Of a DNA stretch of 64,000 nt, positions 47,936 through 59,896 are shown piece after piece. Position 1 is the stretch's first letter. Each line of letters starts with the position of its first letter. Source of the DNA: an uncultured Anaerolineae bacterium (GTDB lineage: Bacteria > Chloroflexota > Anaerolineae > J036 > Brachytrichaceae). The DNA lies in the NCBI GenBank assembly GCA_938034415.1, contig CALHLE010000026.1, positions 1 through 64,000 of the forward strand, written 5' to 3'. The translations under genes and the position numbers were made by a program. The notes below the pieces were generated by a model. That model was not told the origin of the DNA and did not search any database. It worked only from the letters and a program-made list of their open reading frames with translations.

Positions 47936-50900
47936 ATGTCGAATACGCTTGCGGGGGTGCAGACTTCTGGGGTGACAGCAGACAGTAGGCTGAACACAGC
48001 GGCTGAGCCAGTGGCCTTCGCCAGCCGGCTGAGCATTTGGTGCGACCGGCTGATCGAGGCCGGCTGGTTGGCGGCGGTGATTGTCGTGCCGCTGTTCTTC
48101 AACATCTACTCCAGCCGGGTCTTTGAACCCGACAAGTTGACCACCCTGCGCTCGATTGCCCTGGTCATGGCCATGGCTTGGGTGGTGAAGTGGATCGAGG
48201 AGCGCCGCAACCCGCGACGCGATCGCAACGTGACTTGGCGCACGCCGCTAGTGTTGCCGACGCTAATCACCGTTGTGGTTTACATGATCAGCACTGCGTT
48301 CTCAATTGCGCCGCGCACCAGCCTCCTCGGATCGTATCAGCGCCTGCAAGGCACTTACACCACCTTTGCCTACATCGTCGTCTTCCTCATGATTCTGCAG
48401 GGGATGCGCCGGCGCGCGCAACTGGATCGCCTGCTCACGCTCATGATCGTCACTTCGCTGCCAATCGCGTTTTATGGCCTTTTGCAGCGCTTGCAGCTTG
48501 ACCCGTTGCCGTGGGGTGGGGATACGGTGGAGCGCGTGGCCGGCAATATGGGCAACTCGATCTTCATCGCGGCCTATCTGGTCATCATCTTCTTCATCAC
48601 CGTCTACCGCATCGCCGATAGCCTTGCGTCCATCCTGCAAAGCGACCAGCCCCGATGGTCAGACGTCGTGCGCGCTGCGTGTTACATCATCGTCGCGCTG
48701 TTTAACGCGATTGTCGTGCTGATCCTGGCAGGCAGTCGCGGGCCGCAGCTTGGTTGGCTGGTCGGCGTGCTGTTTGTCGTGCTGTTATTGGCGCAGCTCG
48801 TCCGCCGCCGAAAGGCGCGATTGCAGCTTACTGCGGGGTTGATCGGCCTCGGCATAGCCGGGCTGGCTTTCTTGTATTTCATCAACGTCACGCGCAACGA
48901 CCCGAACTATGAGTGGCTGCGTCAGTTCCCTCTGTTTCGTCGCTTGAGCACCGTGTTTACGACGCAAGAGGGCACCAATGCCGTGCGCGTGCTGATTTGG
49001 GAGGGTGCGGCTGAATTGATCTTGCCGCACGACCCAATCGCTGGGCCGGACGGCACGCCTGACGCTTTCAATGCCATTCGGCCGCTGGTCGGTTATGGGC
49101 CGGAATCCATGTATGTCGCCTACAACCGCTTCTACCCGCCGATGTTGGCGAACTTTGAGGCGCGCAACGCCTCGCCGGATCGCAGCCACAACGAGACGTG
49201 GGATGCGCTGGTCATCACCGGCCTCCTCGGTTTGCTGGCCTACATGTTCCTCTTCGGCAGCGTGCTTTTCTATGGCTGTCGCTGGATTGGGCTGATTGCG
49301 TCGCGCTTCGAAGCTGGGCTATTCATCGTGATGTGGATTGCCGGCGCGGCGCTGTTTGGGGCGGGGGCGATTGCGCTTGGGCGTCGGGAGCTGTTCGGCA
49401 TCGGCGTAGGCGCTGGCGTGGTATTCGGCATGACCGTATTCCTGTTCGTCAGCGCGCTGATCAACGCTCGTCGCGGCGATAATGAGTCGTTGCCCGTTCA
49501 GCTTTCGCTGCGCGACCAATTGTTGCTCATCGCCATCGTCTCCGCCATCATTGCGCACTTTGTGGAGATCCACACCGGCATCGCCATCGCAGCAACCCGG
49601 ACCTATTTCTGGGCCTTGAGCGGCGTGATGGTCGTAGTGGGCGCCGGCTGGCTGCAGGGTGACTTGCCGAACTCAAAAGAGGGAAAGCCTGAGGGCGAAG
49701 CCGCCGCGGCGAAAGCTGCTTCGTCTGTGGGCGGCGGCTCATCGGAAGGGCGTCAGAATGTAGGCGGCACGCGCCGACAGCAGCGCGCCGCACAACAGCG
49801 CGCTGCCGCAGCGCGGCGTGCGGCGGCCCCGGCCAGGCGTGGCTTTGTGCTGCCCGGATGGTTTGCCGGTGTCTCCGTCTATGGCGCCTTTCTGGGCCTG
49901 ATCTTGGGCATCATGGCCTTCGACTTCACCAACAACATCGAGCGCAGCGTGACCGCCGGCCAGGTCTTCATCGGCGCGATGACCCGCGTAAAGGGCCAGC
50001 CCAGCTTTGGCGTGTTGGCGATGTTCCTCATCACGCTCATCGTTGGCCTCGCCGTCGTCCTGGCCGAGCTGCGGTCGGGCGGCGCGCTGCGCGACAACGA
50101 GCACACCGTGGCCGCCGGCGCGCTCCTCACATCGATCGCGGCGTTTGTGTGGGTGTCGTTCGGCACATTCATCGCCGGCCGCCTGGTAGCGTTCTCCGCT
50201 TCGCAGCAGAACTCCGTCAGCAGCATCCTCACCATCGCCGACGAACTAGCCGCCTTCCCGGCCTACGTGTACCTCTTGATCGCCGCAGTCATGGTCGCCA
50301 GCGCCTTCTTGTTACGCGGCGAAGAGCTGGTTTTGCCCACGCAGAGTGCTTCCTACGCCGGCCTAACCGGATTGTTCGTCGGCATCATCGCCGTGCCGAT
50401 CGCTGTTGCTTACAGCAATTTGCAGCCGATTGCCGCAGACATCATCTACAAGCAAGCCAGCCCATGGGATCAACGCGGCTCGGGCGAGTTGATGCAGGGC
50501 ACCGGCGTTCAAGGCTGGGACATGGCCATTGAACATTACCGCCGCTCGATCCAACTTGCGCCGAACGAGGATTTCTATTACCTCTGGCTCGGTCGGGCGC
50601 TGCTGGAGAAGGCGAAGGCCACGCCGAATCAATCGCTGAACAGAACGATCCCCGACGATGCGACATTTATGCGCATCATCGGGAATGAGCCACAGAACTG
50701 GAATCGCCCCTATGGCTCCAACGATCTGCCCTCGGCCAGGTTAAGTCGCCAAGACTTGCTTGCGGCGGCGCGCATCATCCTGGAGGAGGCGCGCGTGATC
50801 AACCCGTTCAACACCGACCACAGCGCCAATTTGGCCCGCATGTGGCAGCAGTCTGGCGACATCGCGCGGGCAGAGCTGGACGCGGCGCGCGCGCAGGGGA

Positions 50901-51505
50901 GCGCAGACGCAGCACGCATTGCCGAGCTGGAGGCCGATGTGCAGCGCCGCTTTGAGAACGCCTCGCGGGAATACGCGACGGCTACCCGCCTAAGCCCGAA
51001 CAATGCGCAGTTGTGGAACGAATGGGCCAGCCTGTATCTCTATCGCCTAGGCGATTTAGAAGAAGCAAAGGCCCGGCTCGACCGATCGCTGGCGCTCGAT
51101 AAGAAATTTGGTCAGACCTATCTGCTGCGCGCCGCCTGGCATCTGGAGAAAGCGCGCGCGCTTGATCGGCAGGCCAACCCGGCCGAATGGCGCGCCCAGT
51201 TAGAGCGCGCGCGCGAAGAACTGACTCAGGCTGTCGCTGTGGATCCCGGCTTGCTCCAGGCGTATCAGGAACTGGCGCGGATTGCGCTGGATTTGGGCGA
51301 CGCGCCGGGGGCGATCAACGCGCTGCAGGAATTGCTGGCCCGCAACTCGAATGACTGGAACACCCTCAAGAATCTCGCTTTGCTCTACAGGGACACAAAC
51401 CAGATTACGCTGGCGGTTGAATACGCCCGTCGCGCGCTTGCGCTGGCGCCGGCAGACCAGCAGCCGATACTACAATCGTTTATCCAGCAGCTCGGCTCAC
51501 CCTAG
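47936..51505 (+). CDS. O-antigen ligase/polymerase-like membrane protein fused to TPR domain
   Basis: An 1189-residue protein. The first half has about ten membrane helices with the Wzy/WaaL-type region (AGSRGPQLGWLVGVL, and a large loop containing GYGPESMYVAYNRFYPP and DRSHNETWDALVITGLLGLLAYM). A highly basic Arg/Ala/Gln linker (about residues 609-640) follows, then a second membrane block, and from about 860 a soluble TPR domain (AIEHYRRSIQLAPNEDFYYLWLGRALL, YATATRLSPNNAQLWNEWASLYL, GAINALQELLARNSNDWNTLKNLALLY). It probably joins or polymerises lipid-linked glycans at the cell surface. A GAGGTGA ribosome-binding site precedes the ATG. It is the first gene of the polysaccharide cluster. Confidence 0.88.
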   Translation: MSNTLAGVQTSGVTADSRLNTAAEPVAFASRLSIWCDRLIEAGWLAAVIVVPLFFNIYSSRVFEPDKLTTLRSIALVMAMAWVVKWIEERRNPRRDRNVTWRTPLVLPTLITVVVYMISTAFSIAPRTSLLGSYQRLQGTYTTFAYIVVFLMILQGMRRRAQLDRLLTLMIVTSLPIAFYGLLQRLQLDPLPWGGDTVERVAGNMGNSIFIAAYLVIIFFITVYRIADSLASILQSDQPRWSDVVRAACYIIVALFNAIVVLILAGSRGPQLGWLVGVLFVVLLLAQLVRRRKARLQLTAGLIGLGIAGLAFLYFINVTRNDPNYEWLRQFPLFRRLSTVFTTQEGTNAVRVLIWEGAAELILPHDPIAGPDGTPDAFNAIRPLVGYGPESMYVAYNRFYPPMLANFEARNASPDRSHNETWDALVITGLLGLLAYMFLFGSVLFYGCRWIGLIASRFEAGLFIVMWIAGAALFGAGAIALGRRELFGIGVGAGVVFGMTVFLFVSALINARRGDNESLPVQLSLRDQLLLIAIVSAIIAHFVEIHTGIAIAATRTYFWALSGVMVVVGAGWLQGDLPNSKEGKPEGEAAAAKAASSVGGGSSEGRQNVGGTRRQQRAAQQRAAAARRAAAPARRGFVLPGWFAGVSVYGAFLGLILGIMAFDFTNNIERSVTAGQVFIGAMTRVKGQPSFGVLAMFLITLIVGLAVVLAELRSGGALRDNEHTVAAGALLTSIAAFVWVSFGTFIAGRLVAFSASQQNSVSSILTIADELAAFPAYVYLLIAAVMVASAFLLRGEELVLPTQSASYAGLTGLFVGIIAVPIAVAYSNLQPIAADIIYKQASPWDQRGSGELMQGTGVQGWDMAIEHYRRSIQLAPNEDFYYLWLGRALLEKAKATPNQSLNRTIPDDATFMRIIGNEPQNWNRPYGSNDLPSARLSRQDLLAAARIILEEARVINPFNTDHSANLARMWQQSGDIARAELDAARAQGSADAARIAELEADVQRRFENASREYATATRLSPNNAQLWNEWASLYLYRLGDLEEAKARLDRSLALDKKFGQTYLLRAAWHLEKARALDRQANPAEWRAQLERAREELTQAVAVDPGLLQAYQELARIALDLGDAPGAINALQELLARNSNDWNTLKNLALLYRDTNQITLAVEYARRALALAPADQQPILQSFIQQLGSP

Positions 51506-51534: not shown

Positions 51535-52632
51535 ATGGTTGAACTCGTACTGCTCTTCTTCGGCGCGCTGGCAATTGCGGTAGCAGCCACGCCGCTCAGC
51601 AAGTGGCTTGCGCCTCGCGTCGGCGTCGTTGCTCAGCCGCGCGCGCGCGATATTCACGCCCGGCCGGTGCCGAAGTTGGGCGGGCTGGCCATCCTGCTCG
51701 GCGTGTTGAGCGTGGCGCTGATCTTGGGCCGCCGACTGGAGTTTCAGCAGTTAGCAGCCATCGTCGTGGCTGCTACGCTGATGTCATTCATGGGCCTCGT
51801 GGATGATCGCTTCAGCCTCAACGCCTACGCCAAGCTGGTCATCCAGTTGTGCGCTGCGTTGGTGGTCTATCTGTTCGATGTGCGCGTCGCGCTGTTCGGC
51901 AGTCCGGCGCTGGATGCGCTGCTCACCGTGGTCTGGATCGTCGGCATCACCAACGCCATGAACTTTCTCGACAACATGGACGGCTTGCTCGCCGGCGTCA
52001 GCGCTGTGATCTCCGCCTTCTTTTTAGTATTGGCCATCATCAATGGGCAATACCTGGTCGGCCTGCTCAGCGCAGCCGTGCTGGGTGCGTGCATCGGATT
52101 CTTGGCCTGGAACTTCAATCCGGCGAGCGTGTTCATGGGCGATTCGGGCAGCATGTTCCTCGGCTTTCTGCTGGCGTGCATCGCCGTTAAGCTGCGCTTT
52201 TGGGGGCAAAGTCCGCTGGTTTCATGGATGGTGCCGGTGATCCTCATGGGCTTGCCGATCTTTGACATGACCCTGGTGACGCTTTCTCGGCTGCGACGCG
52301 GCAAGAACCCGCTCACATCGCCGGGCAAAGACCACACTTCCCACCGCATAGCCAATCACGGCTTTAGCCGGCGCGAAGCGGTGATGATCCTCTACCTCGT
52401 GTGTGGCGCGCTTGGCATCGTGGCCATCATCGCCTCGGTGGCCAACCTCTGGGCCAACCTCATCATCGCCGTTGCGCTGTTGATTGCCGGGGGATACATG
52501 TTGTGGTTCATGGAGTTTGGACCGTGGAAGCTGACAACGATAGACTGGGAAAGCCCGGGGCTGGGGACGCCGCCCAGCGCGCGCCAGCCCGTTCCATCGC
52601 CTACCGAACCGACCAGCGCATCGCAGTCCTAG
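51535..52632 (+). CDS. WecA/MraY-like polyprenyl-phosphate sugar-1-phosphate transferase
   Basis: A 365-residue membrane enzyme with ten to eleven helices. GLVDDRFSL carries the Asp-Asp motif, NAMNFLDNMDGLLAG and FMGDSGSMFLGFLLA are the catalytic loops, and GKDHTSHRI is the His-box shared by WecA/TagO. It should load UDP-HexNAc onto undecaprenyl phosphate to start surface glycan synthesis. A Pro/Ser/Thr-rich tail ends the protein. The last 109 bases overlap, in another frame, the proposed start of the UDP-sugar dehydrogenase gene. Confidence 0.94.
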   Translation: MVELVLLFFGALAIAVAATPLSKWLAPRVGVVAQPRARDIHARPVPKLGGLAILLGVLSVALILGRRLEFQQLAAIVVAATLMSFMGLVDDRFSLNAYAKLVIQLCAALVVYLFDVRVALFGSPALDALLTVVWIVGITNAMNFLDNMDGLLAGVSAVISAFFLVLAIINGQYLVGLLSAAVLGACIGFLAWNFNPASVFMGDSGSMFLGFLLACIAVKLRFWGQSPLVSWMVPVILMGLPIFDMTLVTLSRLRRGKNPLTSPGKDHTSHRIANHGFSRREAVMILYLVCGALGIVAIIASVANLWANLIIAVALLIAGGYMLWFMEFGPWKLTTIDWESPGLGTPPSARQPVPSPTEPTSASQS

Positions 52633-53915
52633 GGCTGGGCTACGTTGGCCTGCCGCTGGCGATAGCGTTCGCCAAAGCCGGCCGGAGCGTCTTCGGCGTA
52701 GACACAGACGCGCGCAAGGTGGCACAACTCAATGCTGGCGTCAGCTATATCGCCGACGTGCCGAGCGAAGATGTCGCGCAGGTTGTGCAAGCTGGCGCAT
52801 TCACGGCCACTGGCGATTACGACGCGCTGCGCGACTGCGACGTTATCTTCATTTGCGTCCCGACTCCCTTCGACGCCATGCGCGCGCCTGACCTCTCGTA
52901 TGTGGTCAGCGCAGTCGAGGGCATCCAGCCCCGCCTGTCAAAGGGGCAATTGGTCATCCTGCAAAGCACGACCTATCCCGGTACAACGCAGGAGATCGTC
53001 CAACCCATCCTAGAGCGCAGCGGCCTAAAAGCCGGTGTGGACTTTGATCTAGCATTCTGCCCTGAGCGCATTGACCCCGGCCGCACCGATTGGACTGTGA
53101 CAAACACGCCTAGGGTGGTTGGCGGAGTGACGCCTGCGGGCACGCAGCGCGCGGCTGTTGTGCTAGGCGCGCTGGGGGCGCCGGTGCATTGCGTGTCTTC
53201 CCCGCGCGCAGCCGAGATGACCAAGCTGTTGGAGAACATCTTTCGCTCGGTCAATATCGCGCTGGTCAACGAATTGGCGCTGTTGAGCGAGCGCATGGGC
53301 ATTGACATCTGGGAAGTGATCGAAGCAGCCAAGACCAAGCCTTTTGGTTTTATGCCCTTTACGCCGGGAGCAGGGGTGGGCGGGCACTGCATCGGGGTGG
53401 ATCCATACTACCTGTCCTGGAAGGCTCGCGAGTATGACTTCTACACTCGCTTCATCGAATTGGCCGCCGAGATGAACCAAAGCATGCCCTTCCATGTTCT
53501 AGACCTGATTGAGCAGGCGCTCGATCGCGTGCACATCGCCCTGCGCGATGCGACAGTGATGGTGCTCGGCGTGGCCTTTAAGCGCGACGTGGACGATCCG
53601 CGCAACTCGCCGGCTGAGCGTGTGATCGAGCTGTTGCTGCGGCGAGGCGCCAAAGTCATGTATCATGATCCATACGTACCGCGCTTCCAAGTCGGCGGCA
53701 GCGTTTTCCACCGCGAGTCTGTTGAGCTGCTGTCTCAGCCACTTAGCGAATCAAATTTGCGCAGGACGCACTGCGCTGTGATCGTCACGGGCCATCGCGC
53801 GGTGGATTATGGCTTCGTAGTGCGCACCGTGCCCGCGGTCGTAGATTGTTGCAACGCGACTATGGCCGTTGACGGGGATAAGCGCCACGTGGTGCGTCTG
53901 GGCGTAGGGCGCTGA
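52524..53915 (+). CDS. UDP-sugar 6-dehydrogenase (WbpA/WecC-like)
   Basis: An approximately 463-residue enzyme oxidising a UDP-hexosamine (or hexose) to the uronate. It shows RIAVLGLGYVGLPLAIAFA (NAD loop), the catalytic Cys in GVGGHCIGVDPYYLSW, LLENIFRSVNIALVNEL, and GVAFKRDVDDPRNSPA. The FIELAAEMN segment is closer to UDP-GlcNAc dehydrogenases than to UDP-glucose ones. No ATG precedes the NAD loop. GTG at 52524, with GGAG 8 bases before it, is the best start but overlaps the preceding gene by 109 bases; the conserved fold begins near 52614. Confidence 0.9.
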   Translation: MEADNDRLGKPGAGDAAQRAPARSIAYRTDQRIAVLGLGYVGLPLAIAFAKAGRSVFGVDTDARKVAQLNAGVSYIADVPSEDVAQVVQAGAFTATGDYDALRDCDVIFICVPTPFDAMRAPDLSYVVSAVEGIQPRLSKGQLVILQSTTYPGTTQEIVQPILERSGLKAGVDFDLAFCPERIDPGRTDWTVTNTPRVVGGVTPAGTQRAAVVLGALGAPVHCVSSPRAAEMTKLLENIFRSVNIALVNELALLSERMGIDIWEVIEAAKTKPFGFMPFTPGAGVGGHCIGVDPYYLSWKAREYDFYTRFIELAAEMNQSMPFHVLDLIEQALDRVHIALRDATVMVLGVAFKRDVDDPRNSPAERVIELLLRRGAKVMYHDPYVPRFQVGGSVFHRESVELLSQPLSESNLRRTHCAVIVTGHRAVDYGFVVRTVPAVVDCCNATMAVDGDKRHVVRLGVGR

Positions 53916-53979
53916 TCGCGTCACCGTTTGGATGCGCAGTCACGGTGGATGCGCTGATTCGGTGAACTTGTTGTGGCGG

Positions 53980-55104
53980 ATGAATGCTGAGCTGCCGTAT
54001 TACTTGGCCTTTGCCCGAGTGAAGGGCATCGGCGCTGTGCGCGTTCGCAAGCTGAAGGCCCACTTTGGCTCGCTACAAGCGGCTTGGTCTGCCGGCGAGT
54101 TCGATCTTGCAGCGTCCGGCTTGGACGCGAGATCAATCGCGGCGCTGGCGCAGGCGCGCCGGCATATTGTCCCGGAACAAGAGGTCGAACGCTTGGCCGG
54201 CGCCGGCGCGATGGCGCTCACCTGGGAAGACGCCGGCTATCCTAAATTGCTGCGCGAAGTGGCCGACCCGCCCCCGGTGTTGTTTGTGAAGGGCACACTG
54301 GCCGAGGCCGATGCGTGGGCAGTGAGCATCGTCGGCACGCGCCGCGCGACGGTGTATGGCCGGGAGGTGACCGAGATGTTGGCCGGCGAATTGGCGCGCA
54401 ATGGCATCACCATCGTCAGCGGCATGGCACGCGGCATTGACGCGATCGCCCACACGGCCGCGCTGAAGGCCGGCGGCCGCACGCTTGCCGTGCTGGGCTG
54501 CGGCGTGGATGTGGTGTATCCGCCGGAACATCGCAAGCTGGCGCAGCAGATCGCCGAGCACGGCGCCTTGATCAGCGACTATCCCCTCGGCACGCCGCCG
54601 GATGCGTTGAACTTCCCGCCGCGCAACCGCATCATCAGTGGGCTGAGCCTGGGCGTAGTGGTGGTCGAGGCCGATGAGCGCAGCGGCGCGCTGATCACGG
54701 CCGAGTTTGCCGCCGACCAGGGACGCGATGTATTCGCCGTGCCGGGTAACATCTTCAACCGCACCAGCCGCGGAACCAACCGCTTAATTCAGCAGGGCGC
54801 GCATATCGTGCTTGATGCGCAGAGCATTCTGGAGGAGCTAAATCTGAACATGGTGACGGATCGTGTGGAAGTCGAGGCGGTGATGCCGGAAAGTGATGCG
54901 GAACGAGAGATCTTGGCGCGTCTCTCTCATGAGCCAACATCCGTAGATGAGCTTGTGCGCAATTTGGCGATGCCTGCTGCTGATGTGACAGCTACACTGG
55001 CGCTCATGGAATTGAAAGGCCTGGTGCGTCAAGCGACCGGCACAAGCTATGTGCTGGCCCGCGAAGCGCCCGCAGCCTATACAGTAGGTGACAGGGACTA
55101 TTAG
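53980..55104 (+). CDS. dprA: DNA processing protein DprA
   Basis: A 374-residue competence protein that loads RecA onto incoming single-stranded DNA. The N-terminal helix-hairpin-helix-like part (ARVKGIGAVRVRKLKAHFGSL) is followed by the Rossmann-like core, with SIVGTRRATVYGREV, VSGMARGIDAIAHTAAL, VLGCGVDVVYPPEHRKLA, PPRNRIISGLS, and GALITAEFAADQGRDVFAVPGN. A winged-helix C-terminal domain is seen from about 320. The ATG at 53980 gives the usual start. It lies in the middle of polysaccharide genes; comEC is 32 kb away. Confidence 0.95.
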   Translation: MNAELPYYLAFARVKGIGAVRVRKLKAHFGSLQAAWSAGEFDLAASGLDARSIAALAQARRHIVPEQEVERLAGAGAMALTWEDAGYPKLLREVADPPPVLFVKGTLAEADAWAVSIVGTRRATVYGREVTEMLAGELARNGITIVSGMARGIDAIAHTAALKAGGRTLAVLGCGVDVVYPPEHRKLAQQIAEHGALISDYPLGTPPDALNFPPRNRIISGLSLGVVVVEADERSGALITAEFAADQGRDVFAVPGNIFNRTSRGTNRLIQQGAHIVLDAQSILEELNLNMVTDRVEVEAVMPESDAEREILARLSHEPTSVDELVRNLAMPAADVTATLALMELKGLVRQATGTSYVLAREAPAAYTVGDRDY

Positions 55105-55165
55105 CAGACGGGAGGATGTGCGCCGCCTTACAGGCGGCAAAAGCGGGTTCATCATCCATCAAGAT

Positions 55166-56239
55166 ATGTATCACGCATTGATCATGGCCGGCGGGAGCGG
55201 CACGCGACTTTGGCCGCTCAGCCGCAAAGATCGCCCCAAGCAATCATTGGCGCTCGTCGAAGGGCGGACGATGTTTCAAGTGACCGCCTATCGGTTGCAG
55301 CCGCTGATCCCGCTTGAGCGTGTGCACGTGGTGACCAACGCTCAGATGGCTGCAATCTTCAAAGAGCAAGTGCCGGGCATCCCGGACGACAACTACATCA
55401 TTGAGCCTAGCGCAAAAGATAACGGCCCGGCAGTAGGTCTGGCGCTTACGCACATTGCGCATGCCGACCCGGATGCCACAGTCGCAATTCTGACCGCCGA
55501 CCATCACATCGGCAAGACGGCGGAATTCCATAGGGCGCTGCAAGCGGCTTATGAAGTGGCCCAGGATGGCTACATCGTTACCCTGGGCATCATGCCAACG
55601 TATCCCGCGACCAGCTTCGGTTACATCGAGCGCGGTGACGCAATAGGTGCGCGATACGGCCTCGACATCTTTTGCGCGCGCCGCTTCACCGAGAAGCCGA
55701 AACAAGAGGTCGCAGAGGCCTATCTGGCCGATGGACAGCACTTCTGGAACAGCGGCATGTTCATCATGCGCTGCCGAGTAGGGTTGCGCGAGTTTCAACG
55801 CCAGCAGCCGGAGTTTGCCGCGGCCCTGGCTCGGCTTGAGACAACGATCGGCAGCCCGGCCTATGACGACGCGCTACAAGCTGCCTGGGATGTTGCGCCG
55901 AAGAAGTCCATAGACTATGCCATCATGGAAGGCGCCGAACGCGTTGCCGTCATCCCTGTGGATATTGAGTGGAGCGACATCGGCAGTTGGGCTTCGCTGT
56001 TGGATATTCTGCCGAAAGACGCGCAGGGCAACGCTTTCTTCGGCGACCGAGTCTTAGCGATCGAGACCAGCAACACCCTTGTGCGCACCAGTGATCGTTT
56101 TGTCGCCGTCATGGGCTTGAAGGACGCTGTCATCGTGGACACGCCTGATGTGTTGCTGGTATGCTCCTTAGACCGCGTGTCCGATCTGAAGCAGATTGTG
56201 GAACGGCTGCGCCAGGATCGGCGCGACGATCTGCTTTGA
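55166..56239 (+). CDS. Mannose-1-phosphate guanylyltransferase
   Basis: A 357-residue nucleotidyltransferase forming GDP-mannose. MAGGSGTRLWPLSRKDRPKQ is the nucleotide-binding signature of this family, FGYIERGD and FTEKPKQEVAEAYLADGQHFWNSGMF are the sugar-binding blocks, and EWSDIGSWASL is the C-terminal active-site segment. It lacks the fused isomerase domain of longer ManC proteins. The start at 55166 is preferred because the longer frame overlaps dprA. It supplies mannose-type precursors for the surrounding surface-glycan genes and is followed by the first Wzz-like gene after 4 bases. Confidence 0.95.
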   Translation: MYHALIMAGGSGTRLWPLSRKDRPKQSLALVEGRTMFQVTAYRLQPLIPLERVHVVTNAQMAAIFKEQVPGIPDDNYIIEPSAKDNGPAVGLALTHIAHADPDATVAILTADHHIGKTAEFHRALQAAYEVAQDGYIVTLGIMPTYPATSFGYIERGDAIGARYGLDIFCARRFTEKPKQEVAEAYLADGQHFWNSGMFIMRCRVGLREFQRQQPEFAAALARLETTIGSPAYDDALQAAWDVAPKKSIDYAIMEGAERVAVIPVDIEWSDIGSWASLLDILPKDAQGNAFFGDRVLAIETSNTLVRTSDRFVAVMGLKDAVIVDTPDVLLVCSLDRVSDLKQIVERLRQDRRDDLL

Positions 56240-56243
56240 ATGC

Positions 56244-56924
56244 ATGATTGCCGATTACGCTCGAATCCTGCTGCGGCGTTGGTGGCTGGCGCTGTTGCCG
56301 GTGGCGCTGATCGCGGCGGTCACCCTGTTGACGACGCGGCCCGCGCCGCCGACTTATGTGGTGACGCTGTCGTTCGCAGTCGGCCTAGTGCCGGAGCCGT
56401 TGCGCGAGCAAGCCTATAACTACGACCGCCATTACAACTGGCTGGCGTCGGAATACGTCACGCAAGGCTTCTCATTAATCATCGGCAAGGGCGTATTTGC
56501 CGACAACGTCGCCAGGCGTCTGGCGCGGCGCGATATATCCCTGCCCGCGCCGCTCGCCGGCGCGATTCGTTCCGAGTATCGCTCCAGCGTGCTGGTTGTC
56601 TACGTGTCGTGGCCTGACGCTGAGCAAGCAGCGCAGATTGCCCAGGCCGTGGTGGATGAACTGGACGAGAACTACGAAGCCTACTGGCCACAACTGAAGG
56701 GCGCCGGCGCTTCGCCGGTGCGGCTGATGGATCCGATCGTGCCTGTGCCGACGGCGGCGCCCCTGCGCGACCGCTTTGATTTGCCGGTGCGCCTCGCGCT
56801 CGGCGTGCTCGCCGGAGCGGCCCTGGTTCTGTTGTGGCATTATTTTGACCCGGTGATCAGGGAGCGCCGCGAAATCGAGCGCATGGGGCTGAACATCATC
56901 GGCGAAATTCCTGAGCGGTTCTAG
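56244..56924 (+). CDS. Wzz-like polysaccharide co-polymerase, first
   Basis: A 226-residue protein with an N-terminal helix (about 11-30), a periplasmic-side domain, a second helix near 186-206 and a short cytoplasmic tail ending in IIGEIPERF. This two-helix layout with a Pro-rich segment before the second helix (LMDPIVPVPTAAPLRDRFDLP) is that of Wzz/YveK chain-length regulators. It starts 4 bases after the guanylyltransferase stop (ATG at 56244). Together with the next two genes it forms a split chain-length control module. Confidence 0.8.
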   Translation: MIADYARILLRRWWLALLPVALIAAVTLLTTRPAPPTYVVTLSFAVGLVPEPLREQAYNYDRHYNWLASEYVTQGFSLIIGKGVFADNVARRLARRDISLPAPLAGAIRSEYRSSVLVVYVSWPDAEQAAQIAQAVVDELDENYEAYWPQLKGAGASPVRLMDPIVPVPTAAPLRDRFDLPVRLALGVLAGAALVLLWHYFDPVIRERREIERMGLNIIGEIPERF

Positions 56925-56941: not shown

Positions 56942-57592
56942 ATGGAGTTACAGGATTACATTCAAATCGTCAAACGACGCTGGTGGATCGTCGTGCTGAC
57001 GGCGCTGATCGCGGCGGCCAGCGCGTTCGTCTTCAGCCGGCTGCAGACGCCGATCTACAAATCATCCATGAAGCTGACGATTCAACCGGCGCGCACCGAC
57101 TTCGGCCAAACCCAGGCCGCCAAGCAGTTGTTGTCTTCCTACATTAGCATCATTCGCACCGAGCGCAACGCGGCGGAGGTTGGCAAGCGCTTACAGTTGG
57201 ATTACTCGCCTGCCTACATCTATGGCCAGACGCGCATGGCTGACGACGCTGCCAGCTATGGGGTGGAGATCGAAGTGCGCGATTACGACGGCGAAACGGC
57301 CAATCGCATCGCGCGCGAGTGGGCGCAGTTGTTCGTCGAGTTTCGCAACCGCGACAACGCCAAGCAGCGGCGCGAAGATCGCGTCGAAGCGATCCTGGGT
57401 GATGACCCGCGCTACACGCAGGATTACCCGCGCACCGGTGTGAACACAGCGGCAGGCCTGCTCCTGGGCCTGGCTGCCGGCGCAGCAATTGTGGCGTTGC
57501 TCGAATGGCGTCAGTCCGCGCTGCTCCGCGCGCCGAAGGACGTCGAACGCAATCTGTCGCTGCCTATCGTCGGCGACATCCCGGCTCACTAA
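56942..57592 (+). CDS. Wzz/YveK-like polysaccharide co-polymerase, second
   Basis: A 216-residue membrane protein. MELQDYIQIVKRRWWIVVLTALIAAASAFVF is a typical Wzz N-terminus with its first helix, YKSSMKLTIQP is the following strand, and the second helix is near 165-185. The C-terminus (LPIVGDIPAH) matches the end of the previous Wzz-like protein in style, suggesting tandem duplication and divergence. It precedes the CpsD-like gene by 6 bases, the usual arrangement for a co-polymerase with its tyrosine kinase partner. Confidence 0.87.
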   Translation: MELQDYIQIVKRRWWIVVLTALIAAASAFVFSRLQTPIYKSSMKLTIQPARTDFGQTQAAKQLLSSYISIIRTERNAAEVGKRLQLDYSPAYIYGQTRMADDAASYGVEIEVRDYDGETANRIAREWAQLFVEFRNRDNAKQRREDRVEAILGDDPRYTQDYPRTGVNTAAGLLLGLAAGAAIVALLEWRQSALLRAPKDVERNLSLPIVGDIPAH

Positions 57593-57598
57593 TTCGCC

Positions 57599-58225
57599 AT
57601 GAACCTCATCACGCTCACTGAACCGAAATCCCCCGCTGCCGAGGCATATCGCACGCTGCGCACGAATTTGCACTTTGCGATGCTCGACGCGCCGATGCGG
57701 ACGCTGCTTGTGGCCTCGCCGGATTCCGGCCGGAACGCGGCGAAGGTGCTGGCAAACCTGGGCGTCACGTTGGCGCAAGCCGGAAAGCGCACCATCGCCG
57801 TAGATGCCGATCTGCGCGAACCGGCATTACACATCGCTTTTAGCGTGCCGAACGCAACCGGCCTGGCCGATTGGCTCGCAGGCGGCGCGAACGGCCTGGG
57901 CGAGCCGCCGTTGCGCTCAACGTCGCTGCCTAACCTCAGCCTGCTCACAAGCGGAACGCCGCCGGCTATTCCTGCCGATCTGATCAGCTCAGATCGCATG
58001 ACCTATGCCATCGAGCGACTTGCGAGCATGGCCGACCTGGTCTTGTTCAACGCGCCGCCGCTCGGCTGGGTCAGCGATGCCGCCGTGCTGGCTTCTCGCG
58101 TAGATGGAGTGTTGCTCGTCATCGAAGCCGGCAAGACGCGACTCGATCGTGCGCAGCAAGCCAAGGACATCCTCGCCCGCGCGCATGCGCGGGTGATCGG
58201 CGCGGTGATGCTAGGCGCGAAGTAA
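57599..58225 (+). CDS. CpsD/BY-kinase-like P-loop protein with degenerate ATP site
   Basis: A 208-residue protein aligned by eye with the cytoplasmic bacterial tyrosine kinase CpsD/YwqD. SPAAEAYRTLRTNLHFA is the family N-terminus, and IAVDADLREPALH is the Walker A' motif. The Walker A loop, normally Gly-x-Gly-Lys-Ser/Thr, reads SPDSGRNAAK (about 40-49), losing the Lys and the Ser/Thr. The Walker B Asp before the Pro-Pro is Asn (LFNAPP, about 149). There is no Tyr-rich tail. It is probably a catalytically dead partner or regulator of the two Wzz-like proteins. Confidence 0.85.
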   Translation: MNLITLTEPKSPAAEAYRTLRTNLHFAMLDAPMRTLLVASPDSGRNAAKVLANLGVTLAQAGKRTIAVDADLREPALHIAFSVPNATGLADWLAGGANGLGEPPLRSTSLPNLSLLTSGTPPAIPADLISSDRMTYAIERLASMADLVLFNAPPLGWVSDAAVLASRVDGVLLVIEAGKTRLDRAQQAKDILARAHARVIGAVMLGAK

Positions 58226-58312: not shown

Positions 58313-59896
58313 GTGGAGAAGGTCCTCGATCGCGTGATACATCGCCCAACCCAAACCGCAGATTACTGGTCCGCCCTCACCATTACTGCGGATGATGCGG
58401 ATTTCCTTTACAGTTTCATTCTTGAAGCGGGAAAGCCTCAGCGCATCGCCGATCTGGCGCTGGCGCTTGTCCGCCACCGTGTTGACCAAGAGAATGCTGC
58501 GCTGCGCCGCCAATGGTCTGATAACAACGTCTACCAACCGAAGAAGCGTTATGCAATTGGGGAAAGACTGGTCTTCCCGGCGCTGAAGTTTGCTTCCGGC
58601 CAAGTCGTTGGGGTGCGTCCGGGCAATAACCCAGACCTGGGTGAGTTCGAAGTCATCTCCGTGCAGTTCGACGATGGCCGGCGCCGCGAATTTGCGGCCA
58701 ACTACCATCGCCCGCATCGTCTGAACGATGAAGATGCGACAGCGCTTTTCGATTCAGCATCGCTTCAATCGCCTGAAGCGTTGTACGAGGCGTACGGCCG
58801 ATACGTCGTTGCCGCGCTAGAAGCCGCGCTTGAGGGCAACCGCGAATTCATCCGCATCGGCGATGAGTGGTTCCTGCGCGCCCTCATGGCTGAAGTGAAC
58901 ATCGGCCACCTGAACTTGGCGGAAGCGGTGCTCGATATGGCGAACGGTGGGCCGCTGACGACGGATGTGATTCTGCGCGATTTGGGGTTGCCGCCGGACG
59001 TAAGCGCTAACGTGCAGGAAGTCTCGCTGAATAGCGCGCTGGCCGCGGATCCGCGCTTCGACGAAGTCAGCTTGAACGACACGCCGGCTTGGTTCCTTCG
59101 GCGGTTGGAGCCGGTAGAGGCGCGAGAGATGCCGGAAGTGTTGCGCGCCGAACGGCCATCGGGGCGCGCCGCGCTAAGCCCTGAACTTGCCGCGCTGGCC
59201 TATGAGCTGGACGATGAGCTGGAGTTCGACGAAGCAGCGCCGGTGTCGCCGGCGCAGAGCGCCACGCTTATCCTAACCTATCCGCACCGCCGCGCCGGCA
59301 CGCTGGGGTGGTCGCGCGCCGCAGCGTCCGTTTTGCCGCAGTCGCGCAAGCCGCGCATCCCGATGCGCTTCAAAGACCGCTTGACGCAGAAAGAGATGAC
59401 CGTGTGGTTGGTGCGCGAAGGGCGCTACATTTGGGGGCTGGGTGACTGGTTCAAGGCCAATGACCTCCCCGCCGGCGCCTACATCGAACTGGCGCGCAGC
59501 GACGCCGAAAACGTCGTGTGGATAGACTATCGCCGGCGAAGGCCCAAGCGCGAGTGGGTGCGCGTGGCCAGCGTGCGCGATGGCCGGCTGTGCCTGGAGA
59601 CGGCGCAGCGCGCGGTAGCGTGCGAGGTAGATGAGCTGATGTCCGTGTTCGTGGATGACCCACGCGCGCTAGATGTGCTGCGCGCCGAGCGACGGCGCGA
59701 CCCCTTGCAAGCAGTGCGCGAGGCCTTCCCCGAGATCGCCAAGCTGAGTCCACAGGGCAACGTGCACGCCCGGACGCTCTACGCGGTGGTGAACGCGATC
59801 ACGCGCAGCACGCCGACCGACGTGTTCGCGGCATTGGCGGCGAGCGGCGCGTATGTGCCGGTGGGAGACAACTACTGGCATCTGGGCGAGCGTTGA
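58313..59896 (+). CDS. Uncharacterised protein with winged-helix-like C-terminus
   Basis: A 527-residue soluble protein that I cannot assign to a named family. The GTG at 58313 fits the nearby -10 box. The N-terminal 150 residues include a helix-rich part and a small beta-rich region (IGERLVFPALKFASGQVVGV, FEVISVQFDDGRRREF). An Ala/Glu-rich linker lies around 290-330. A second beta-rich module spans 345-450. The end, LYAVVNAITRSTPTDVFAALAASGAYVPVGDNYWHLGE, looks like a winged helix of the HARE/RpoE-delta kind, suggesting a transcription or DNA-linked role. The next gene is similar in style, so they may act together. Confidence 0.65.
   Translation: MEKVLDRVIHRPTQTADYWSALTITADDADFLYSFILEAGKPQRIADLALALVRHRVDQENAALRRQWSDNNVYQPKKRYAIGERLVFPALKFASGQVVGVRPGNNPDLGEFEVISVQFDDGRRREFAANYHRPHRLNDEDATALFDSASLQSPEALYEAYGRYVVAALEAALEGNREFIRIGDEWFLRALMAEVNIGHLNLAEAVLDMANGGPLTTDVILRDLGLPPDVSANVQEVSLNSALAADPRFDEVSLNDTPAWFLRRLEPVEAREMPEVLRAERPSGRAALSPELAALAYELDDELEFDEAAPVSPAQSATLILTYPHRRAGTLGWSRAAASVLPQSRKPRIPMRFKDRLTQKEMTVWLVREGRYIWGLGDWFKANDLPAGAYIELARSDAENVVWIDYRRRRPKREWVRVASVRDGRLCLETAQRAVACEVDELMSVFVDDPRALDVLRAERRRDPLQAVREAFPEIAKLSPQGNVHARTLYAVVNAITRSTPTDVFAALAASGAYVPVGDNYWHLGER

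Follow-up and report, generated by a model that had tools for sequence, protein, structure and literature searches.

A conserved BY-kinase homologue lacking catalytic residues is a probable scaffold of a Wzz-type polysaccharide co-polymerase in Chloroflexota

The window, by which we mean the whole analysed stretch of 64,000 nucleotides, comes from a 98.5% complete genome (G000) that belongs to the Candidatus Roseilinea group within the Chloroflexota, and carries a row of polysaccharide genes on its forward strand. The row includes a Wzy/WaaL-like membrane protein with C-terminal TPRs (47936..51505), a candidate polymerase or ligase given its matches to TPR families and to Wzy_C (31.3 bits, just below the cut-off of 31.7). 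It continues with a WecA-like initiating phosphoglycosyltransferase (51535..52632; PF00953, 123.5 bits) and a nucleotide-sugar dehydrogenase (52401..53915; TIGR03026, 416 bits) whose true start is probably near 52626. The next gene, dprA (DNA processing protein, 53932-55104), sits inside the polysaccharide row and is kept there in all five genus loci checked. It is followed by a manC-like mannose-1-phosphate guanylyltransferase (55088..56239; TIGR01479, 317.5 bits, below the cut-off of 372.95), with a GTG at 55088 and an uncertain start, then by two Wzz-like genes, wzz1 and wzz2, and by the gene studied here (57599..58225). The order from the dehydrogenase to this last gene is the same in five further loci of the genus, at 69-96% protein identity. 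Directly downstream lies an ORF of 527 amino acids (58313-59896) that is 83-92% identical in four genus loci and for which a Pfam search returned zero families above the cut-off.

The first Wzz-like gene, wzz1 (56244..56924, 226 aa), encodes a divergent protein recognised with an iterated profile and, weakly, with TIGR03007 (19.7 bits, below cut-off), and the second, wzz2 (56942..57592, 216 aa), a Wzz-like co-polymerase (PCP; PF02706, 43.7 bits for a cut-off of 25.5). These two genes directly upstream provide the linked PCP, which has no kinase domain of its own. The C-terminus of Wzz2 is the conserved cytoplasmic strand LPIVGDIPAH, right after which the protein stops. Two Wzz-like genes also precede the stand-alone kinase-like gene, intact or eroded, in most members of the class that we examined, in a count where several loci are too short to show both. 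The Wzz2 proteins of the window's family (f1) stop soon after the LPxxGxIP strand. In L029, L047, L051, and L057, from Anaerolineae with an intact stand-alone kinase, the Wzz ORF adjoining the kinase is instead drawn out into a long extension, at the end of which lies one more hydrophobic segment that looks like a third transmembrane helix. In the window, wzz2 and the gene downstream of it share a frame across their junction (57590-57601), one stop and two codons apart, with a 9-base gap. This in-frame gap recurs in six of the nine genus genomes (the window, L008, L009, L011, L012, and L013); as stop codon, the window has TAA, and L036, L038, and L039 have TGA. Occasional read-through of the wzz2 stop would yield a Wzc-like fusion, and an AF2 prediction of this pseudo-fusion had a pTM of 0.26, too low to back an interface between the two proteins.

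The ORF at 57599-58225 starts with ATG, is undamaged, and encodes 208 amino acids. Residues 15-204 match TIGR01007 (polysaccharide biosynthesis tyrosine autokinase) with 139.5 bits for a cut-off of 108.05, a score that reports homology, not activity. The best sequence match in the PDB is the CapA1-CapB1 protein of S. aureus (E=3.2e-31, from residue 3 or 4 to 204), and further matches are to CapAB chimeras, Etk, and Wzc. The Pfam families of nucleotide-binding domains CbiA and AAA_31 match under their cut-offs, as expected with a broken P-loop. We modelled the protein with AF2 using six genus sequences as input (mean pLDDT 67.9, pTM 0.72), and Foldseek matched the model to the kinase domains of CapA2B2, CapAB-K55M, BceF, and Wzc (TM 0.72-0.77). 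By profile, sequence, and model, the protein is thus a stand-alone kinase domain of the CapB/CpsD type with the BYK fold. Profiles and model agree with the first-pass annotation, which had described an intact gene with a well-kept fold behind two Wzz-like genes. A scan of viral contigs found no relatives that could serve for structure prediction, and the gene appears in none of the abstracts retrieved by a literature search on Roseilinea exopolysaccharide.

The alignment confirms that the residues of catalysis are missing, as the first-pass annotation had read from the P-loop and Walker B segments. The Walker A motif GxGK[ST] is replaced by SPDSGRNAAK (residues 40-49, 57716..57745), of which the SGRNAAK part places Ala47 (GCG, 57737-57739) at the position of the catalytic Lys. 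The Walker B motif, normally hydrophobic residues followed by DxxP, reads LVLFNAPP (58037..58060), with Asn151 (AAC, 58049-58051) at the position of the Asp. The C-terminal part lacks Tyr and ends in GAVMLGAK. Two other motifs are kept. The Walker A' segment IAVDADLR (57794..57817) contains VDADLR (57800-57817) and reads as DxDxR in the window; Asp69 is invariant, and residues 71 and 73 vary in some relatives. The EX2RX2R motif, located in the helix that makes the octamer contact in BY-kinases (PMC3795738), reads EAYRTLR (residues 15-21, 57641..57661), and its E15, R18, and R21 are identical in all nine genus orthologues.

These losses are shared by the whole genus. The gene is present in all nine genomes (69-100% identity), always as an intact ORF, and each copy lacks GK[ST], has Ala for the Walker A Lys and Asn or Ser for the Walker B Asp, and is devoid of Tyr after residue 195, so that the earlier statement that no Tyr-rich tail remains extends to the genus. 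Orthologues with intact P-loops, which would have pointed to a recent mutation or a sequencing error, do not occur within it; the same losses in eight other genomes, surrounded by differing residues, exclude that explanation. We also considered whether some unconventional kinase or ATPase activity persists with a Lys supplied from elsewhere, e.g., Lys49 of SGRNAAK. A Lys is indeed found two residues after the canonical position in five of the nine genus orthologues, but the other four have T, V, or L there, the sister genera have E, S, V, or a gap, and none of these proteins retains the tail with its Tyr substrates. We regard such activity as highly improbable.

We then looked at the family, where a search of 28 genomes revealed the stand-alone form in 26. 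The change from Lys to Ala is fixed in all 14 members of the genus (g1) and its sister genera g3, g4, and g6. Other genera show stepwise erosion of the catalytic motifs: the Lys persists inside a damaged loop (EDKT, DDKS, EHKG) in g8, g2, and some of g7, two g7 members have lost it separately, and in g5 both the P-loop (GEGKS) and Walker B (DTPP) are intact. The tails of the family lack Tyr, except for two g7 copies with a single terminal Tyr. The earlier description of a conserved pseudokinase therefore holds for the genus and three sister genera, with the support of selection and synteny, and fails for the family as a whole, since the distant orthologues G012 and G018 still have GEGKS. By this distribution, the loss of the Lys is old yet not family-wide. 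Since g5 has an intact loop and no tail, the simplest order of events in the family would be the loss of the tail followed by that of catalysis.

We inferred a tree of 70 sequences without the alignment columns of the trait itself. It recovers the copies of the family as one group (93/84) and the Lys-less g1, g3, g4, and g6 as another (94/91), with a bootstrap that had not fully settled. A quick tree of 128 sequences retains the family group (92), and the support for the Lys-less group is only 60. At least nine changes in the presence of the Lys are needed on this larger tree. We sampled another 89 stand-alone copies from the class, of which 64 contain GK[ST], 16 a Lys without GK[ST], and nine no Lys, whereas the 15 fused Wzc-type copies are all intact; this sample is non-random, having been drawn from those copies that match the window's protein best. 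The difference between fused and all stand-alone copies is significant when relatedness is left uncorrected (Fisher p = 0.001). Stand-alone copies in Anaerolineae have lost the Lys repeatedly, and the fused ones have stayed intact. The Lys-less copies outside the family (L034, L060, L079, L080, L106, L113, L122, L123, and L137) apparently represent independent losses.

Stepwise erosion is also what one would expect from a former kinase decaying into a pseudogene. This reading is contradicted by the pattern of substitutions, and we rejected it as having almost no credibility. The pairwise dN/dS (NG86, computed within the genus only) has a median of 0.14 (range 0.07-0.22, 36 pairs), compared with 0.098 for wzz1 and 0.064 for wzz2, i.e., the gene is under purifying selection that is somewhat weaker than on its neighbours. 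All nine ORFs are intact, the gene order is kept, and Ala47 is fixed across the 14 members of the Lys-less clade in spite of being encoded by all four GCN codons (GCG, GCA, GCC, and GCT). Because it is fixed despite this synonymous variation, Ala47 is probably maintained by selection and not simply unmutated.

The constraint has been redistributed along the protein. The P-loop core belongs to the slowest segments when the stand-alone relatives are intact (rank 16 of 203 six-residue windows counted from the lowest), and to the fastest within the genus (rank 6 of 203; 0.54 versus 0.20 overall). Of the segments compared in the genus, the one with EX2RX2R evolves most slowly (0.05 versus 0.20 overall). 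Within the fast loop, Asp42 and Ala47 are identical in all 14 Lys-less clade members, with varying neighbours. The constraint on catalysis is gone, and it remains on the body of the protein, the ring-contact helix, and the rebuilt loop. In an alternative reading, the protein still binds a nucleotide or another phosphate ligand in its rebuilt pocket, through Walker A' and new contacts, and acts as a ligand-controlled switch devoid of kinase activity. The retention of VDADLR, with Asp69 in 14 of 14 members, fits such a switch, as does a loop that is not wholly free at Asp42 and Ala47. Yet no member retains Gly46 or Lys47, hardly any retains the T/S after the Lys, residue 71 is Asn in three and His in one of the 14, residue 73 varies, and the flanks of the P-loop are among the fastest-evolving residues. 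We find a ligand-controlled switch unlikely, if less so than residual catalysis; the kept Walker A' could still allow some residual ligand binding.

The presence of other BY-kinases in the same genomes raises the question of whether the protein acts as an inactive regulatory partner, in a hetero-oligomer or as a decoy, of an active one. The pairs CapB1/CapB2 and PtkB/PtkA have been suggested as precedents (PMC3795738), and four of the nine genus genomes (G001, G003, G005, and G006) have, in addition, a fused kinase of the Wzc type whose GKST is intact and whose short tail contains Tyr. However, the TIGR01007 search for another BY-kinase suggested by the first-pass annotation found none in the 98.5% complete genome of the window, where the weaker matches were read as MinD, ParA, Mrp, and SRP54, and the same holds for four further members of the genus, in which the gene is equally conserved. 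Because these five genomes contain no other BY-kinase, the protein does not need an active partner, even if such a partner may be available to it in some species, and we consider this role very improbable. Genes for LMW-PTP, which might have pointed to a cycle of Tyr phosphorylation, were uninformative, being present in all nine genomes, even those without an active BY-kinase.

The reading that we favour, and judge to be probable, is that the protein is a BY pseudokinase that has lost catalysis and its Tyr tail and is kept as a cytoplasmic subunit of the Wzz co-polymerase, where it would assemble its Wzz partner or partners by binding in place of phosphorylation. The role of a silent scaffold is made probable by the persistence of selection after the loss of the ATP-binding Lys and of the phosphorylatable tail. 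From its motifs and by analogy with known pseudokinases, we infer the absence of both ATP binding and ATP hydrolysis. Together with the neighbouring Wzz-like protein or proteins, it would make up a co-polymerase of two parts, most likely with Wzz2 as its direct partner, whose short C-terminal strand LPIVGDIPAH it may bind in the cytoplasm. The retained EX2RX2R helix would help Wzz to assemble into a ring around the polymerase, and assembly would be set by binding and unbinding in place of a cycle of phosphorylation and dephosphorylation. Binding to Wzz2, ring assembly, and an effect on chain length are all proposed here by analogy. A stand-alone tyrosine kinase of this type normally takes part in setting the length of polysaccharide chains. 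Canonically, the octamer of the co-polymerase is held together by the ring of kinase domains and dismantled by phosphorylation of the tail (PMC11986026). Wzc K540M, without the Walker A Lys, still forms a stable octamer (PMC11986026), so the loss of the Lys is compatible with a ring. The Tyr tail makes half of the ring interface of CapB (PMC3795738), and since it is gone here, ring formation is not guaranteed.

A more tentative extension, which we hold to be possible without expecting it, is that the rebuilt P-loop, with its invariant Asp42 and Ala47, is under selection as a new nucleotide-free site, perhaps for the Wzz tail, and that stand-alone BY-kinases of Anaerolineae have repeatedly become pseudokinases, in the Roseilinea family by losing the tail first. 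If so, they would constitute a natural series from phosphorylation-driven to phosphorylation-independent co-polymerases. BY pseudokinases have been described before (EcpK and HfsB; PMC12004946), and the protein at 57599-58225 is a Chloroflexota member of this class. New features are the lineage, the series of graded intermediates, and the repeated loss in stand-alone and not in fused copies; the last two should interest specialists. Most models were built on Wzc and CapAB, which makes it debatable whether co-polymerases need a phosphorylation cycle. The lineage offers this protein in intact, half-eroded, and fully eroded form within one gene order, partly in genomes that lack another BY-kinase, and so allows phosphorylation-dependent and -independent co-polymerases to be compared directly. 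The annotation as "tyrosine autokinase", which the protein would receive by passing the TIGR01007 cut-off, is misleading here.

The nearest solved relatives, in both sequence and fold, are CapA/CapB of S. aureus (PCP-2b; 2VED, 3BFV, 4JLV, and 4JMP). They share the bipartite arrangement and the EX2RX2R helix with the Roseilinea protein, but CapB has GxGK[ST], the Walker B Asp, and the Tyr cluster, and CapB2 autophosphorylates. Wzc K540M of E. coli also misses the Walker A Lys and its kinase ring forms; unlike the Roseilinea protein, it is fused to its PCP part, has a Tyr-rich tail, and is an engineered mutant. The HfsB/HfsA pair of Caulobacter crescentus, compared here through its description in PMC12004946, comes from another phylum and likewise includes a stand-alone pseudokinase, HfsB, which is needed with the PCP for holdfast polysaccharide synthesis. 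EcpK of M. xanthus lacks the catalytic motifs and the tail, is needed for EPS, and interacts with EpsV, whose C-terminus makes the contact in a model (PMC12004946). It resembles the Roseilinea protein in its stand-alone BYK fold, its lack of catalytic residues and Tyr tail, and its PCP-2 partner without a kinase domain. The two differ in that none of the three Walker motifs is left in EcpK, which has a basic helix at its end, whereas the Roseilinea protein keeps Walker A', ends directly after its last strand, and is preceded by two Wzz-like genes. In our trees, which were built without EcpK and HfsB, the Roseilinea protein belongs to a Chloroflexota stand-alone clade together with intact and half-eroded relatives.
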